The translations under genes were made by a program, and so were the position numbers. Positions 8,521 to 45,931 of a stretch of 64,000 bases of DNA are shown piece by piece. The stretch is from Rhodococcus oryzae (GTDB lineage: Bacteria; Actinomycetota; Actinomycetes; Mycobacteriales; Mycobacteriaceae), in assembly GCF_005049235.1 (NCBI RefSeq), contig NZ_SUMD01000014.1, positions 1-64,000 on the forward strand, read 5' to 3'. Position 1 is the first letter of the stretch. Each line of letters opens with the position of its first letter. Below the pieces are notes generated by a model. That model ran no database searches. It saw nothing but the letters and a program-made list of their open reading frames with translations, and was not told the DNA's origin.

Positions 8521-9321
8521 GTGCGTGCGAAGTCGGCCGGGTACCGGAGCGTCCTGCTCGCGGCCGCCGCTGCCTCGGCGCTGGCGCTGTCCGGCTGCAC
8601 GATCCCAACCGAGACCGCCGCGGGCGTGACCGCGGCCCCCACCACCACCGCCGTCGAGCTGGTGCGATCGGCCTCGCTCCAGGGCAAGACGGTGTTCCTC
8701 GATCCCGGCCACAACGGTGCCAACGACGCGGGCATGAGCGCGCAGGTCCCGACCGGGCGCGGCGGCACCAAGGAATGCCAGACCACCGGCACCAGCACCG
8801 ACGGCGGCTTCCCCGAGCACTCGCTCAACTGGGAGGTCGTCGCCCAGATGCGCACCGAGCTCGAGAATCTCGGCGCCCGGGTGCTGCTGAGCCGCGCCGA
8901 CGACACCTCCGTCGCCGCGTGCGTGGACCGGCGGGCCGCCGACGCCAATGCATCCGGTGCCGACGTGGTCGTCGCGATCCACGCCGACGGCGCCGCACCG
9001 GACCAGCACGGATTCCACGTCTGTTTCTCGGCGCCGTCACTGAATACGGTTCAGGCCGGCGCCTCGGTCGCGTTCGCCAAGTCCATGCGCGACGCACTCC
9101 AGACGTCCGGCCTCATCCCATCCACCTACGTCGGCACCGGCGGACTGATGCCCCGCGACGACCTCAGCGGACTCAACCTGTCCGAGCGGCCGTCGATCCT
9201 GGTCGAGCTGGGCAACATGCGCAACGCGGACGAGGCGCGCGCCATGACCAGCGAGGAGGGCCGGACCCGGTACGCGCAGGCGGTGGTGTTCGGCATCGTC
9301 CGCTATCTCGACGGCCGCTGA
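8521..9321 (+). CDS. N-acetylmuramoyl-L-alanine amidase, Rv3717-like, lipoprotein
   Basis: A 266-residue zinc amidase of the Amidase_3 family. It cuts the bond between N-acetylmuramic acid and L-Ala of peptidoglycan fragments. Zinc ligands are H64 (DPGHNG), E99 (FPEHSLN) and H154 (AIHADG); the catalytic Glu is E229 (LVELGN). The N-terminus is an export signal with a lipobox-like LSGC ending at Cys26, so it may be membrane-anchored, whereas M. tuberculosis Rv3717 is described as soluble in the periplasm. There is no cell-wall-binding domain. The gene sits between ybaB and the SRPBCC gene exactly as Rv3717 does, and appears to be leaderless. Confidence 0.92.
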
Positions 9322-9357: not shown

Positions 9358-9792
9358 TCAGGCCAGCTCGCGGGCCAGGTTCGCCAGCACGGCCGCCTGG
9401 ATCTTCCGCAGCCCGCCCGGCGCGAAGGTGCGCTCGAAGAAGCCGCCGATGCCGCCCGCGCCCTTCCACTCGGTGGTCGTGGTGACCGTGGACCCGGCAC
9501 CGGACGGGGCGACGGTCCAGGTGGTGACGAGGGTGGAGTTGGCATCCTTCTCGGTGACGGTGTTGCCGTCGACGGTCACGGTGGCCTTGATGTCACGCGA
9601 ACGCTTCTCGGTCGCCTTCAGCGTCCACTGCGCGACCGTGCCCGCACCCTGGCCGCCCTCGAGGACCCGGTAATCCAGGTACTGCTCGGTGAGGATGCGG
9701 GGTCGCACCGTCTCGTAGTCGGTGAGCGCCGCGAGCGCCCGCTCCGGTGCCGCCGCGACCTCGACCGAACTGCTGGCGCTGACCTGTCCCAC
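9358..9792 (-). CDS. SRPBCC-fold protein (Rv3718c-like)
   Basis: A 144-residue START/SRPBCC-type ligand-binding protein: an N-terminal strand SSSVEVAAAPERALAAL, a middle with the strand pair around WTLKATE and ATVTVDG, and a long C-terminal amphipathic helix with LRKIQAAVLANLA. Such proteins hold hydrophobic ligands in a deep pocket; no enzymatic residues are evident. GTG 9792 is preceded by AAGGAG at good spacing; a longer in-frame extension to 9870 has no ribosome site. It occupies the Rv3718c position in the conserved block and faces the divergent FAD oxidoreductase. Confidence 0.82.
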   Translation of the reverse strand: MGQVSASSSVEVAAAPERALAALTDYETVRPRILTEQYLDYRVLEGGQGAGTVAQWTLKATEKRSRDIKATVTVDGNTVTEKDANSTLVTTWTVAPSGAGSTVTTTTEWKGAGGIGGFFERTFAPGGLRKIQAAVLANLARELA

Positions 9793-20609: not shown

Positions 20610-21548
20610 ATGACCATGACGTTCACCCAGCTCGACCTGCTCAGGGAGCTCGAGCCGACGGTCGAAGCCAATCTCAACCGGCACCTGTCGATGACCAAGA
20701 ACTGGAATCCGCACGACTACGTGCCCTGGGACGAGGGCAGGAACTTCGCGGAAATGGGTGGGGTGGACTGGGACCCGGACCAGTCGCGGCTCTCCGAGCT
20801 GGCCAAGGTCGCCATGATCACGAACCTGCTGACCGAGGACAACCTGCCCTCGTATCACCGCGAGATCGCCGCCAGCTTCTCCCTCGACGGGGCGTGGGGC
20901 ACCTGGGTCAACCGGTGGACGGCGGAGGAGAACCGGCACGGGATCGTCATGCGCGACTACCTGGTGGTCACCCGGGCCGTCGACCCTGTCCAGCTCGAGC
21001 AGTACCGGATGGAACACCTGACCAACGGCCTCGACTCACCGCTGAACGCCGCGTTCCTGCCGTCGGTGGCCTACGTGACGTTCCAGGAGCTCGCCACCCG
21101 GCTGTCGCACCGCAACACCGGGCATGCCTGCGCGGACGACGTCGCGGAGCGGATGCTGGACCGGATCGCGGCGGATGAGAACCTGCACATGGTCTTCTAC
21201 CGAACCCTCGCAGGCGCCGCCATGGATCTCGTGCCCGACGCGGCGCTCGAGGCGATCACCGACGTGCTGCTCAATTTCCAGATGCCCGGCCAGTCCATGC
21301 CCGGCTTCCGGCGGAACGCGGTGCTCCTCGCCAAATACGGCATCTACGATCTCCGGCAGCATCTCGACGACGTCGTCATGCCGGTGCTCCGCATCTGGAA
21401 CGTGTTCGAGCGCAACGACTTCACCGATGCGGGCGAGCGGGCGCGGGACCGGCTGGCGGCCCACCTCGACGATCTCCGCCGCGCTGCCGAGCGGTTCGAG
21501 GAATCGCGGGATCGGATGCTCGCCCGCGAGGCCGCGCGCGCGGAATAG
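20610..21548 (+). CDS. Acyl-[ACP] desaturase (DesA family, di-iron)
   Basis: A 312-residue soluble stearoyl-ACP-desaturase-type enzyme that introduces a cis double bond into an acyl-ACP chain using O2 and ferredoxin electrons. The di-iron ligands can be placed: E76 (LLTEDN), E107 and H110 (EENRH), E160 (TFQEL), E190 and H193 (DENLH). The length and ENLP-like context match mycobacterial DesA1/DesA2. ATG 20610 has AAGGAG at ideal spacing. It could supply the unsaturated chains used by the methyltransferase pair at 10041-12799 or mycolic acid precursors; that link is inference. Confidence 0.93.
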   Translation: MTMTFTQLDLLRELEPTVEANLNRHLSMTKNWNPHDYVPWDEGRNFAEMGGVDWDPDQSRLSELAKVAMITNLLTEDNLPSYHREIAASFSLDGAWGTWVNRWTAEENRHGIVMRDYLVVTRAVDPVQLEQYRMEHLTNGLDSPLNAAFLPSVAYVTFQELATRLSHRNTGHACADDVAERMLDRIAADENLHMVFYRTLAGAAMDLVPDAALEAITDVLLNFQMPGQSMPGFRRNAVLLAKYGIYDLRQHLDDVVMPVLRIWNVFERNDFTDAGERARDRLAAHLDDLRRAAERFEESRDRMLAREAARAE

Positions 21549-41552: not shown

Positions 41553-41640
41553 GGAGGATTCGCCTAGTGGCCTATGGCGCTCGCCTGGAACGCGGGTTGG
41601 GTTAACGCCCTCAGGGGTTCAAATCCCCTATCCTCCGCCA
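41553..41640 (+). tRNA. tRNA-Ser (anticodon GGA)
   Basis: An 88-base class II tRNA. Acceptor arms GGAGGAT and ATCCTCC pair perfectly, the anticodon loop is CTGGAAC (anticodon GGA), an extra stem of serine type (TTGGGTTAACGCCCTCA) follows, and the T arm holds GGTTCAAATCC. The discriminator G and the CCA end are encoded. The gene is followed by a strong terminator and lies near ffs as in related genomes. Confidence 0.95.
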
Positions 41641-42427: not shown

Positions 42428-42465
42428 CTGCGCGGCGCAGGACCCTTCATTACCGTCCGCGATGC
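42428..42465 (+). promoter_or_regulatory. Promoter copy 1 of the tandem micro-genes
   Basis: TACCGT at 42451-42456 is a probable -10 box; TACCGTCCGCGATGC (42451-42465) matches 14 of 15 bases of the region in front of the second micro-gene, and the preceding TGCGCG-CGCAG-ACC-pattern (from about 42429) is also shared. The start codon is 40 bases downstream, leaving a short leader with a strong ribosome site. Confidence 0.65.
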
Positions 42466-42504
42466 GTCGGCCGTCGGCGCACAGTCCACTCGGGAGGAAC
42501 CACC

Positions 42505-42627
42505 ATGGCAGACACCGGCAGCTCCGTACTCGACACCGGCGCCGCGACCGCCGTCGACATCGAGGGCATCCTCGGCACCACGATCAAGGCCGTGCTCGAC
42601 ACGTTGAACAACGTGACCATCAGCTGA
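42505..42627 (+). CDS. 40-residue acidic amphipathic micro-protein, PorA/PorH-like candidate (copy 1)
   Basis: A 40-residue protein read from ATG 42505, behind GGGAGGA at ideal spacing and with its own promoter and terminator. It has no signal peptide, five acidic residues and one Lys. Apolar residues at 19, 22, 23, 27, 30, 31, 34 and 37 would form one face of a helix. These traits (size, acidity, no signal, amphipathic helix, many Ser/Thr) are those of corynebacterial cell-wall channel peptides such as CjPorA (40 residues), PorA and PorH, which are exported without a signal peptide and mycoloylated. Residues 2-7 (ADTGSS) recur in the next micro-protein. The channel role is inference. Confidence 0.7.
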   Translation: MADTGSSVLDTGAATAVDIEGILGTTIKAVLDTLNNVTIS

Positions 42628-42646
42628 CGTTCACTCACCCAAGATA

Positions 42647-42676
42647 GGCCCCGCCCAACAGTTTTCGGGCGGGGCC
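42647..42676 (+). terminator. Terminator of micro-gene 1
   Basis: GGCCCCGCCC at 42647-42656 pairs exactly with GGGCGGGGCC at 42667-42676 and is followed by CTTTCGCTT. It begins 20 bases after the stop, so the micro-gene is transcribed alone. Confidence 0.85.
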
Positions 42677-42816
42677 CTTTCGCTTCCGAGCCAGAAGCGA
42701 CGAACAACAGTGCCCATCAACTGATTTCAGCTTCCATGACGCACCGCCGAAATTCACCCGGACGGCGGGGGCGGATGCCATCTCCGACTACCGGCGACCA
42801 TTCGGACCCGCTTCTA

Positions 42817-42831
42817 CATGAACTGTTCATG
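42817..42831. promoter_or_regulatory. Palindrome CATGAAC-T-GTTCATG upstream of micro-gene 2
   Basis: A perfect 7-1-7 palindrome in the 356-bp gap between the two micro-genes, about 105 bp before the second promoter. It looks like a dimeric regulator site. The remainder of the gap (42677-42913) holds no convincing gene; a longer open frame there overlaps the micro-gene out of frame and is rejected. Confidence 0.5.
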
Positions 42832-42913
42832 CTCCGGAAGAGTTGCAGCACAGGTTGTTTCCCACAGCTTTGGCCGACGTTAACCGAACAGAAACCCTGC
42901 GATTTCAAGGGAT

Positions 42914-42949
42914 GCGCGCGCGCAGAACCTCCGATACAGTCCGCGATGC
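42914..42949 (+). promoter_or_regulatory. Promoter copy 2 of the tandem micro-genes
   Basis: TACAGT at 42935-42940 is the probable -10 box, and TACAGTCCGCGATGC repeats copy 1 with one mismatch. The similarity reaches back to about 42915 (TGCGCG...GCAG.ACC) and forward to a shared CACAGAC/CACAGTC and GGAGGA before the ATG at 42984, so the whole control region was duplicated. Confidence 0.65.
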
Positions 42950-42983
42950 AGATCGAACGACACAGACTTCCTGGAGGAATCCC

Positions 42984-43112
42984 ATGGCAAACTTCACCCC
43001 CATCGCAGACGCGGGCGCCGACACCGGCAGCAGCGGAATCGACGTCATCTCCGAGGTCCTCTCCGGCGCGGGCGGCATCTTCGGCAGCCTGGTCGGTGCC
43101 TTCAGCAGCTGA
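42984..43112 (+). CDS. 42-residue acidic amphipathic micro-protein, PorA/PorH-like candidate (copy 2)
   Basis: A 42-residue protein from ATG 42984 behind TGGAGGAAT. It contains four acidic and no basic residues, no signal peptide, and ends in AFSS; corynebacterial PorH also ends in FSS, where Ser is mycoloylated. Apolar residues at 22, 25, 26, 29, 32, 33, 36, 37 and 40 follow the i, i+3, i+4, i+7 pattern of an amphipathic helix. Residues 12-17 (ADTGSS) repeat residues 2-7 of copy 1. Two different micro-proteins side by side would fit a hetero-oligomeric channel such as PorA/PorH, but the rest of the sequences differ, and the role is a hypothesis. Confidence 0.7.
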   Translation: MANFTPIADAGADTGSSGIDVISEVLSGAGGIFGSLVGAFSS

Positions 43113-43132
43113 GCCCCCTCAGTTGCGCGGCC

Positions 43133-43162
43133 TCGGCCCCCGTCCATCCGGGCGGGGGCCGA
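43133..43162 (+). terminator. Hairpin behind micro-gene 2
   Basis: TCGGCCCCCG at 43133-43142 pairs exactly with CGGGGGCCGA at 43153-43162, 20 bases after the stop. It lacks a T-tract but mirrors the arrangement behind micro-gene 1. Confidence 0.65.
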
Positions 43163-44890: not shown

Positions 44891-45931
44891 GTGAGCGAAA
44901 ACCCACCGACCGGCCGGCCTGGCAACGAGGGCACCCCGGACAATCCGATTCCGCCGCAGAATCCGCCTGCCGGCGGGTACCCGCCGCCGCCCGGATACCC
45001 GCAGCCCGGCGCCACCCCGCCTCCCGGCGGCTACCCGCCCCCGCCCGGTGGCTATCCCCCGCCGCCCGGATACCCGCAGCAGGGCGCGCCGCAGCCCGGT
45101 TACCCGCAGCAGGGCGCGCCGCAGCCCGGCGGTTACCCGCCCCCGCCCGGATACCAGCAGGGCGGCACCCCCAACATGCCCGGCGGCTACCCGCCGCCCC
45201 CCGGATACGGCGCGGGCGAAGGCGGCTATCCCCCGCCGCCCGGGTACGGCGCGGACGCGTTCTCGGCCCCCGGTTTCGGCGGCCCCGGCGGCACCCCGCA
45301 GCTCACGGTCGGTGACGCGCTCGGCTACTCCTGGAACAAGTTCAAGGCCAACGCCGGGATCTGGATCGGCATCGTGCTGATCGCCGCCGTCATCGAGGTG
45401 GTGCTCAGCCTGATCTTCAACACCGGGAACACCTCGGGCGACTTCTCCTCGGCCTTCACGGTGTGGGGCATCTTCGGCACCATCGTCACCACCGTCGTGG
45501 GATACCTCATCCAGGCCGCCATGATCCGCGGCGCCCTGCACGAGGTGGACGGCAACAAGCCGGCGATCGGCTCGTTCTTCCAGTTCAACAACGTCGGCGC
45601 GATCATCCTCGCCAGCGTCATCGTCGGTGTGCTGTCCGCGATCGGCTTCGTGCTGCTGATCATCCCGGGCCTGATCATCGTGTTCCTGACCTGGTGGACG
45701 CTGCAGTTCGTGATCGACCAGAACCAGGACGCGATCACCGCGATCAAGTCGAGCTTCAGCGCCATCTCGCAGAACGTCGGAGCCCTGCTGCTCCTCGCGC
45801 TGGCGTTGGTCGGCATCAACATCGTGGGCGCGCTGCTGTGCGGCCTCGGCCTCCTGGTGACCATCCCGCTGACCGTCATCGCCTCCACGTACGCCTACCG
45901 CGTGGTGGTCAGGGGCCCGATCGCACCCTGA
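44891..45931 (+). CDS. Pro/Gly-repeat membrane protein
   Basis: A 346-residue protein in two parts. Residues 15-140 are a cytoplasmic tail built of GGYPPPPGYPQ-type repeats (about ten units). Residues 145-335 form five or six membrane segments starting with LGYSWNKFKANAGIWIGIVLIAAV, like the actinobacterial DUF-type membrane domain related to glycerophosphodiester phosphodiesterase membrane regions. Such Pro-rich tails bind SH3-like or GYF partners or are phosphorylated by Ser/Thr kinases in mycobacteria; neither is shown here. GTG 44891 follows AAGGAAG. A hairpin at 45959 ends the transcript. Confidence 0.85.
   Translation: MSENPPTGRPGNEGTPDNPIPPQNPPAGGYPPPPGYPQPGATPPPGGYPPPPGGYPPPPGYPQQGAPQPGYPQQGAPQPGGYPPPPGYQQGGTPNMPGGYPPPPGYGAGEGGYPPPPGYGADAFSAPGFGGPGGTPQLTVGDALGYSWNKFKANAGIWIGIVLIAAVIEVVLSLIFNTGNTSGDFSSAFTVWGIFGTIVTTVVGYLIQAAMIRGALHEVDGNKPAIGSFFQFNNVGAIILASVIVGVLSAIGFVLLIIPGLIIVFLTWWTLQFVIDQNQDAITAIKSSFSAISQNVGALLLLALALVGINIVGALLCGLGLLVTIPLTVIASTYAYRVVVRGPIAP
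44970..45255 (+). repeat. In-frame Pro/Gly-coding tandem repeats
   Basis: Degenerate units of about 24-33 bases encoding (G)GYPPPPGYPQQGAPQP. Several units, such as TACCCGCAGCAGGGCGCGCC, occur twice exactly (near 45071 and 45104), pointing to recent unit duplication. The repeat is coding, and its copy number could vary between strains. Confidence 0.85.

Follow-up and report, generated by a model that had tools for sequence, protein, structure and literature searches.

The question raised by this locus is whether two micro-proteins encoded by neighbouring genes of Rhodococcus oryzae, hereafter abbreviated as P1 and P2, are counterparts of the corynebacterial channel peptides PorA and PorH, as proposed in the first-pass annotation of the DNA. 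The window, that is, the whole stretch of 64,000 nucleotides that was analyzed, belongs to a genome of 5.37 Mb. It carries both genes on the plus strand, P1 at 42505-42627 (40 codons) and P2 at 42984-43112 (42 codons, with FSS at the C-terminus), and each of these open reading frames is preceded, as read from the sequence, by a GGAGGA ribosome-binding site (plus strand; 42493-42498 for P1 and 42973-42978 for P2), as the annotation had described. The pair lies between a gene for an MDMPI_N protein (mycothiol maleylpyruvate isomerase N-terminal domain, Pfam PF11716; 41748-42305, plus strand) and a gene for a protein with a class I tRNA synthetase fold (Pfam PF00749; 43215-44141, plus strand), which begins 102 bases after the end of P2 and which we presume to be GluQRS, hence GluQRS-like in the following. 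Left of the MDMPI_N gene are a small SRP RNA and the tRNA-Ser(GGA) that forms the left anchor of the locus (41553-41640, plus strand). Elsewhere in the window, at 20928-20995 on the minus strand, the sRNA family ASdes of mycobacteria (RF01781) is matched over its full length, with 78 bits.

P1 and P2 are real micro-genes, conserved and paired. P1 is 95.9% and P2 95.3% identical to its counterpart in Rhodococcus maanshanensis, in both cases without gaps, whereas the remainder of the spacer shows 74.8% identity and 37 gap columns out of 302 (Fisher test on gap columns, 1e-10). Seven of the 11 substitutions between the window genes and those of R. maanshanensis are synonymous, with 2.8 expected (p 0.009); taken apart, P1, in which four of five substitutions are synonymous, gives p 0.018 and P2 gives p 0.17. 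The GGAGGA of P2 is present in all four species considered here, while that of P1 is retained in R. maanshanensis and R. tukisamuensis and takes the weaker form GAGAGG in R. spelaei. Broken frames in relatives had been named at the outset as grounds for abandoning the proposal; they were looked for, and the frames proved unbroken. Between the window and R. tukisamuensis the pN/pS ratio is 2.25 for P1 and 1.28 for P2, indicating fast residue change between the more distant species, yet this ratio is hard to interpret since synonymous sites are probably held by the high GC, and dN/dS between distant species (P1 of R. spelaei left out) is uninformative. The high expression attributed to the two genes is not reflected in their codon usage, which is ordinary.

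The view that P1 and P2 are spurious open reading frames, or chance frames within non-coding RNA genes, could appeal to their very short length and to their having no family in Pfam, NCBIfam or PHROGs. It is rendered scarcely credible by R. tukisamuensis and R. spelaei, where frame, start, ribosome site and stop are kept at 38-55% protein identity and length changes are by whole codons only, and there is no Rfam match at the P1/P2 pair. A mobile or phage origin was also considered and rejected, given no plasmid match (E up to 1), no viral-contig relative of P2 and no PHROG.

R. maanshanensis, R. tukisamuensis and R. spelaei are the closest named relatives by P2 (three loci from 86 pattern matches), and together with the genome of the window they make up the four of six genomes of the Rhodococcus genus in which P1 and P2 occur together. 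In the other two genomes (G002 and G004) neither peptide was found beyond chance-level matches (E 0.134 and 0.653 in G002; E 0.225 and 2.32 in G004). Single-sequence searches of 301 genomes of the family retrieved P2 in five and P1 in three; the fifth P2 match lies within a frame of 358 residues (E 0.008) and was taken as chance, and the P1 of R. spelaei, missed by these searches, was found by a profile built without that member (E 1.7e-6). With the P2 profile, 309 of 401 genomes had matches with E no greater than 1, but among the matches listed only the four sequences that make up the profile stand out strongly (E 3.2e-22 or lower), the next having E 0.0026. The genome of the window appears to hold no near paralogs: of the 31 places conforming to the pattern GGAGGA-N(4-8)-ATGGC, which would miss genes with another start context, 30 were read by eye, and apart from P1 and P2 themselves none resembles these peptides.

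By the arrangement of the locus, the clade falls into two pairs of species. In the window and in R. maanshanensis the order is tRNA-Ser, MDMPI, P1, P2, and the partners are direct neighbours; R. tukisamuensis and R. spelaei have the order tRNA-Ser, P1, MDMPI, P2, so that the MDMPI gene intervenes and P1 and P2 are not strictly adjacent. The MDMPI_N gene and P1 thus stand in swapped order between the two pairs of species. The tRNA-Ser anchor is common to these four genomes and to G002, in which tRNA-Ser, MDMPI and GluQRS lie close together with no peptide gene in between; G004, also without the pair, has no MDMPI match at the threshold used. Downstream of P2 in R. spelaei, no GluQRS-like gene was seen in the roughly 800 bases read. 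Since gene order varies and G002 has the neighbours without the peptides, neither P1 nor P2 is a leader tied to one particular gene downstream.

Around TACNGTCCGCGATGC, the upstream regions of P1 and P2 have 20 of 25 bases in common, a level reached by none of 200 single-base shuffles. The exact sequence TACNGTCCGCGATGC occurs twice in the whole 5.37-Mb genome, only before P1 and P2, where it stands 54 and 49 bases before the respective ATG; if one mismatch is allowed, two further places are found, but the control pattern read backward likewise has four at that setting. The promoter block of P1 (42441-42465, plus strand) contains TACCGTCCGCGATGC (42451-42465) and that of P2 (42925-42949, plus strand) contains TACAGTCCGCGATGC (42935-42949). 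In comparison with R. maanshanensis, the promoter/5'UTR block of P1 is 93.2% identical as against 80% for the preceding stretch, and the promoter block of P2 is 95.9% identical as against 75% for the spacer. The promoter is therefore duplicated in the window; a duplication taken alone is not significant for R. tukisamuensis or for R. spelaei (43 and 59 of 200 shuffles). The earlier claim that each gene has its own promoter is supported by the duplicated motif before each gene, but not by a sigma-70 consensus, of which the scan of the window found none.

Another element of 18 bases, GTTAACCGAACAGAAACC (42879-42896, plus strand), is a putative regulatory site upstream of P2. The identical sequence is found before P2 in R. 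maanshanensis and before P1 in R. spelaei, and in the genome of the window it has a single copy within three mismatches, which suggests that it is a movable control element common to both genes. In form the site recalls a direct repeat with imperfect copies, TAACC and AAACC, 11 bases apart. Because the upstream motif is duplicated and the 18-base site may precede either gene, P1 and P2 are probably served, judging from the sequence, by a single regulator, or a single type of promoter, dedicated to them.

Downstream, all eight genes of the four species have a hairpin just 3' of the stop (z -3.07 to -5.02), those of the window being placed at 42647-42676 for P1 (plus strand; MFE -25 kcal/mol, z -3.77) and at 43133-43162 for P2 (plus strand; MFE -39.9 kcal/mol for 60 bases folded, z -3.42). 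Neither of the two was listed in the terminator scan of the window, because they lack a T run. The hairpin terminators claimed for each gene are thus borne out by the folded stems, but not by that scan.

The two peptides have several features in common in spite of the lack of demonstrable homology between them, which was tried and rejected since profile comparison yields only the DTGSS stretch (E 0.0013, five columns, probability 19%). The longer motif ADTGSS, said to be shared, is indeed common to P1 and P2 of the window, yet the orthologs from the more distant species lack it, its counterpart in P1 being ADLGSS in R. tukisamuensis and ANLGSS in R. spelaei, and in P2 GSGSSG and TGSTG, respectively. 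Similarly, the acidic character holds for both window peptides (net charge -4 each, pI about 4) and for six of the eight orthologs, but not for the two R. spelaei peptides, which have net charge 0, so that the overall range is 0 to -4. The calculated masses, initiator Met included, are 3949 and 3947 Da for the two window peptides and 3935 and 3883 Da for those of R. maanshanensis. All eight orthologs are of 40-42 residues, begin with MAD or MAN and lack a basic and hydrophobic leader when judged by eye, without a signal-peptide program, in agreement with the earlier statement that signal peptides are absent.

The amphipathic helices that had been predicted were recovered by two approaches. The hydrophobic moment of the aligned helical columns, which were hand-chosen, peaks at 100 degrees (none of 5000 shuffles for P2; p 0.0008 for P1), and single sequences alone give p values from 0.001 to 0.055. 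AlphaFold2, run with alignments of four sequences each, models P1 as a single helix spanning residues 2-39 (pLDDT 89) and P2, with moderate confidence, as a flexible head rich in Ser, Gly and Thr followed by a helix at residues 16-41 (mean pLDDT 65; 75-76 in the helix blocks). The C-terminus of P2, IFGxLVGxFSS, is invariant in all four orthologs, which therefore all have the FSS ending noted before. Against PDB, the P2 profile, the only one compared, had a best E of 0.33, taken as no match.

How do these features compare with those of PorA and PorH? According to PMC12632848, PorH and PorA of Corynebacterium glutamicum are small peptides of 57 and 45 residues, respectively, predicted to be helical, and PorH assembles at the surface only when PorA is present and one partner or both are mycoloylated; the mycoloylated serine of PorH is S56 of 57, followed by S57. 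The sites of O-mycoloylation are mostly serines amid Ser, Gly and Ala, without a strict motif (PMC11066868). In PMC3792995, PorH and PorA have no presequence, corynebacterial porH and porA are co-transcribed, the porin locus is placed between groEL2 and ppk2, and PorACj, with 40 residues, makes a channel alone.

P1 and P2 resemble the C. glutamicum type of PorH/PorA (NF033938, NF033937, NF033925) in being encoded by two neighbouring genes for signal-less peptides, in small size (34-67 residues in nine tabulated peptides of PorH/PorA loci), in net charge that is 0 or negative, in the amphipathic helix and in having few R, W, C, H or Y residues (0-3). The PorH-like partner has serine pairs near its C-terminus, as P2 does (PMC12632848); the four PorH-like peptides read by eye, from three of four fetched loci, have such a pair but no fixed FSS. 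PorACj of C. jeikeium is likewise a peptide of 40 residues with its own terminator and no presequence, but it forms a homo-oligomeric anion channel from a single gene between groEL2 and ppk2, whereas P1 and P2 are two genes situated elsewhere (PMC3792995). Besides their genus, Rhodococcus, P1 and P2 differ from PorH/PorA in having a promoter for each gene, in the lack of a sequence match and in the locus, the neighbours being tRNA-Ser, MDMPI_N and the GluQRS-like gene rather than groEL2 and ppk2. One genome of Corynebacterium type (G057) displays two successive PorH/PorA-like pairs (L095 766-1608, minus strand), as though the porin cassette had been duplicated in tandem.

Homology of P1 and P2 with PorH/PorA was found neither by models nor by hhalign. 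The NCBIfam PorA/PorH models gave no matches with P1 and P2 of the window; NCBIfam as a whole matched the four P2 members only once, with a citrate synthase model (E 0.46), and the P1 of R. tukisamuensis and R. spelaei matched no porin model. As positive controls in the same test, sequences of C. glutamicum scored 39.5 bits for PorH (cut-off 30) and 83.5 for PorA (cut-off 50), and a PorH-like peptide from a Corynebacterium-type locus scored 34.6 (cut-off 30), its PorA-like neighbour reaching only 22.7 (cut-off 50). NF033938 matches four of 251 genomes of the family (three above cut-off), all of one genus, and, of 14 control genomes, that of C. glutamicum. The P2 profile scores 9.3 to 16.3 against seven peptides of corynebacterial PorH/PorA loci, the two best (14.8 and 16.3) exceeding the 95% level of the shuffles (14.0) without attaining the highest shuffle score, and 8.4 and 8.8 against the two C. 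glutamicum peptides. P1 and P2 therefore fit PorA/PorH by design, not by descent: of the original proposal, pairing, size, the lack of an evident signal peptide, the helix and the C-terminal serines stand; a sequence match to PorA/PorH and the groEL2-ppk2 locus are lacking. Since the design is shared and the models are unmatched, P1 and P2 plausibly work like PorH/PorA, while membership of that family is not demonstrated.

A similar pair is encoded in one genome (G058) of a second genus of the family (GC 70.4%), where tandem genes of 53 and 52 codons lie on the minus strand at 9630-9791 and 9092-9250 of the fetched locus L107 (G058:C3:139000-158000). The genes are 379 bases apart, each with its own ribosome site, and their upstream regions have 25 of 31 bases in common (none of 200 shuffles), that is, a duplicated promoter. 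The P2 profile scores 22.0 and 26.5 with this pair, in each case above all 300 shuffles, whereas the P1 profile is borderline (reached by one and two of 150 shuffles). Taken by itself, the match that revealed the locus (E 0.0074, one genome out of 401) lacks significance; independent support comes from the adjoining 52-residue peptide because it was not picked by the search. Weak P2-profile matches were read by eye at six loci, and ten further stretches (nine new places) were filtered for ribosome-site-led open reading frames of 30-75 codons with at most 6% R, W, C and H; among those stretches only G058 (L072/L107) has such genes. The G058 peptides, which share with P1 and P2 the tandem arrangement, the own ribosome sites, the duplicated promoter and the profile similarity to P2, are likely relatives of P2, but they are longer, lack the terminal FSS, have other neighbours and are known from one genome only.

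The unusual composition of these peptides can be expressed as a design filter, set after seeing them: a ribosome site, 30-75 codons and at most one residue of R, W, C, H or Y. In the window, two of 39 ribosome-site-led starts pass, namely P1 and P2. In the fetched loci 16 distinct peptides pass, from 276 starts in 383,510 bases, a number that includes repeats as the loci overlap and are enriched for such genes; seven are P1/P2 forms, two are those of G058 and seven come from three PorH loci of Corynebacterium type. The filter misses P1 of R. spelaei, which has the weaker ribosome site, and two of the nine tabulated corynebacterial peptides. It suggests a possible route to finding such genes.

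The genomes considered here have other candidates for outer membrane channels, the MspA porins. Matches to MspA (PF09203), counted with fragments included and thus not equal to gene numbers, amount to 19, 19, 11 and 10 in the four pair-bearing genomes, as against one each in the two that have no pair; this difference, seen in six genomes only, may reflect either kinship or a functional link. The Rhodococcus cell-wall channels characterised in PMC9233653, namely PorARc, PorARr and PorBRr, belong to this family, with genes of 540-702 bp, and MspA-family porins are far larger than P1 and P2, with Sec signal peptides and an unrelated fold. P1 and P2 have no Pfam match, and their 40-42 residues compare with 179 positions in the MspA model. 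With 10-19 MspA matches in each genome bearing the pair, P1 and P2 are unlikely to be the sole general porin, which argues for an accessory or specialised channel, or for no channel.

On balance, a PorA/PorH-like function is the best single reading of P1 and P2, held with middling confidence: they would be envelope peptides lacking a signal sequence, paired in the manner of PorA/PorH and either diverged from these or convergent with them. From their features we infer that these small helical peptides most likely leave the cell without a signal sequence and would be located within the mycolic-acid outer membrane or at its surface. There they would work like corynebacterial PorH-PorA, with amphipathic helices packing into a hetero-oligomer that is probably a channel, and the serine-rich ends (the FSS terminus of P2 and the GSS segments) would be plausible anchor sites for mycolate. 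The near-identical promoter of each gene in the window would allow the two subunits to be made together.

Next in order, though rather unlikely, is that P1 and P2 are envelope or surface peptides without a pore, anchored in the mycomembrane in a structural, adhesive or surface-active role, a view that may hold for other small mycoloylated proteins as well. It is backed by the same sequence evidence as the pore, and it can also draw on the many matches to MspA-type porins already in these species and on the flexible, Ser/Gly/Thr-rich head of P2; pairing and linked control suggest instead one complex of two parts, as in PorA/PorH. Release of P1 and P2 as amphipathic peptides acting on other cells, in the manner of leaderless bacteriocins or phenol-soluble modulins, or as signals, would suit leaderless, amphipathic products of 40-42 residues encoded within 3.7 kb of a Vut_1 transporter (46020) and an RDD membrane protein (44273). 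The resemblance of one G058 peptide to delta-lysin-type modulin models (E 0.03-0.04 over 11 residues) amounts to noise. Leaderless bacteriocins are usually cationic, but all eight orthologs are net negative or neutral; moreover, six scanned neighbours (that at 44891 without family) include no recognised bacteriocin exporter or immunity protein, and P1 and P2 have no PHROG or PADLOC match, so we regard such release as improbable.

Equally low in our estimate is that P1 and P2 are small regulators of the cytoplasm or inner membrane, or leader peptides for a downstream gene. The short distance between P2 and the GluQRS-like gene in the window would favour a leader; however, a hairpin of its own ends each gene, P1 precedes and P2 follows MDMPI in two species, and the downstream gene fails to accompany P2 in the stretch read in R. 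spelaei, while G002 has the closely spaced neighbours without any peptide.

Somewhat more tentatively, P1 and P2 could represent a separate family of paired leaderless micro-channels without detectable sequence kinship to PorA/PorH, in mycolata outside Corynebacterium. Among the matches listed in open-access full texts there was no report of these peptides. Such a family, if true, would span no less than the present Rhodococcus clade plus another genus, and would imply that peptide-built pores of the mycomembrane either had more than one origin or have diverged too far to be recognised, and that they were missed because their genes are so short. In the papers cited, the open question of how signal-less proteins get to the mycolic-acid outer membrane depends on peptides of corynebacteria. 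With another lineage of the same anatomy, at a defined locus in four species and absent from certain relatives, export, mycoloylation and pore assembly could be put to comparative tests.
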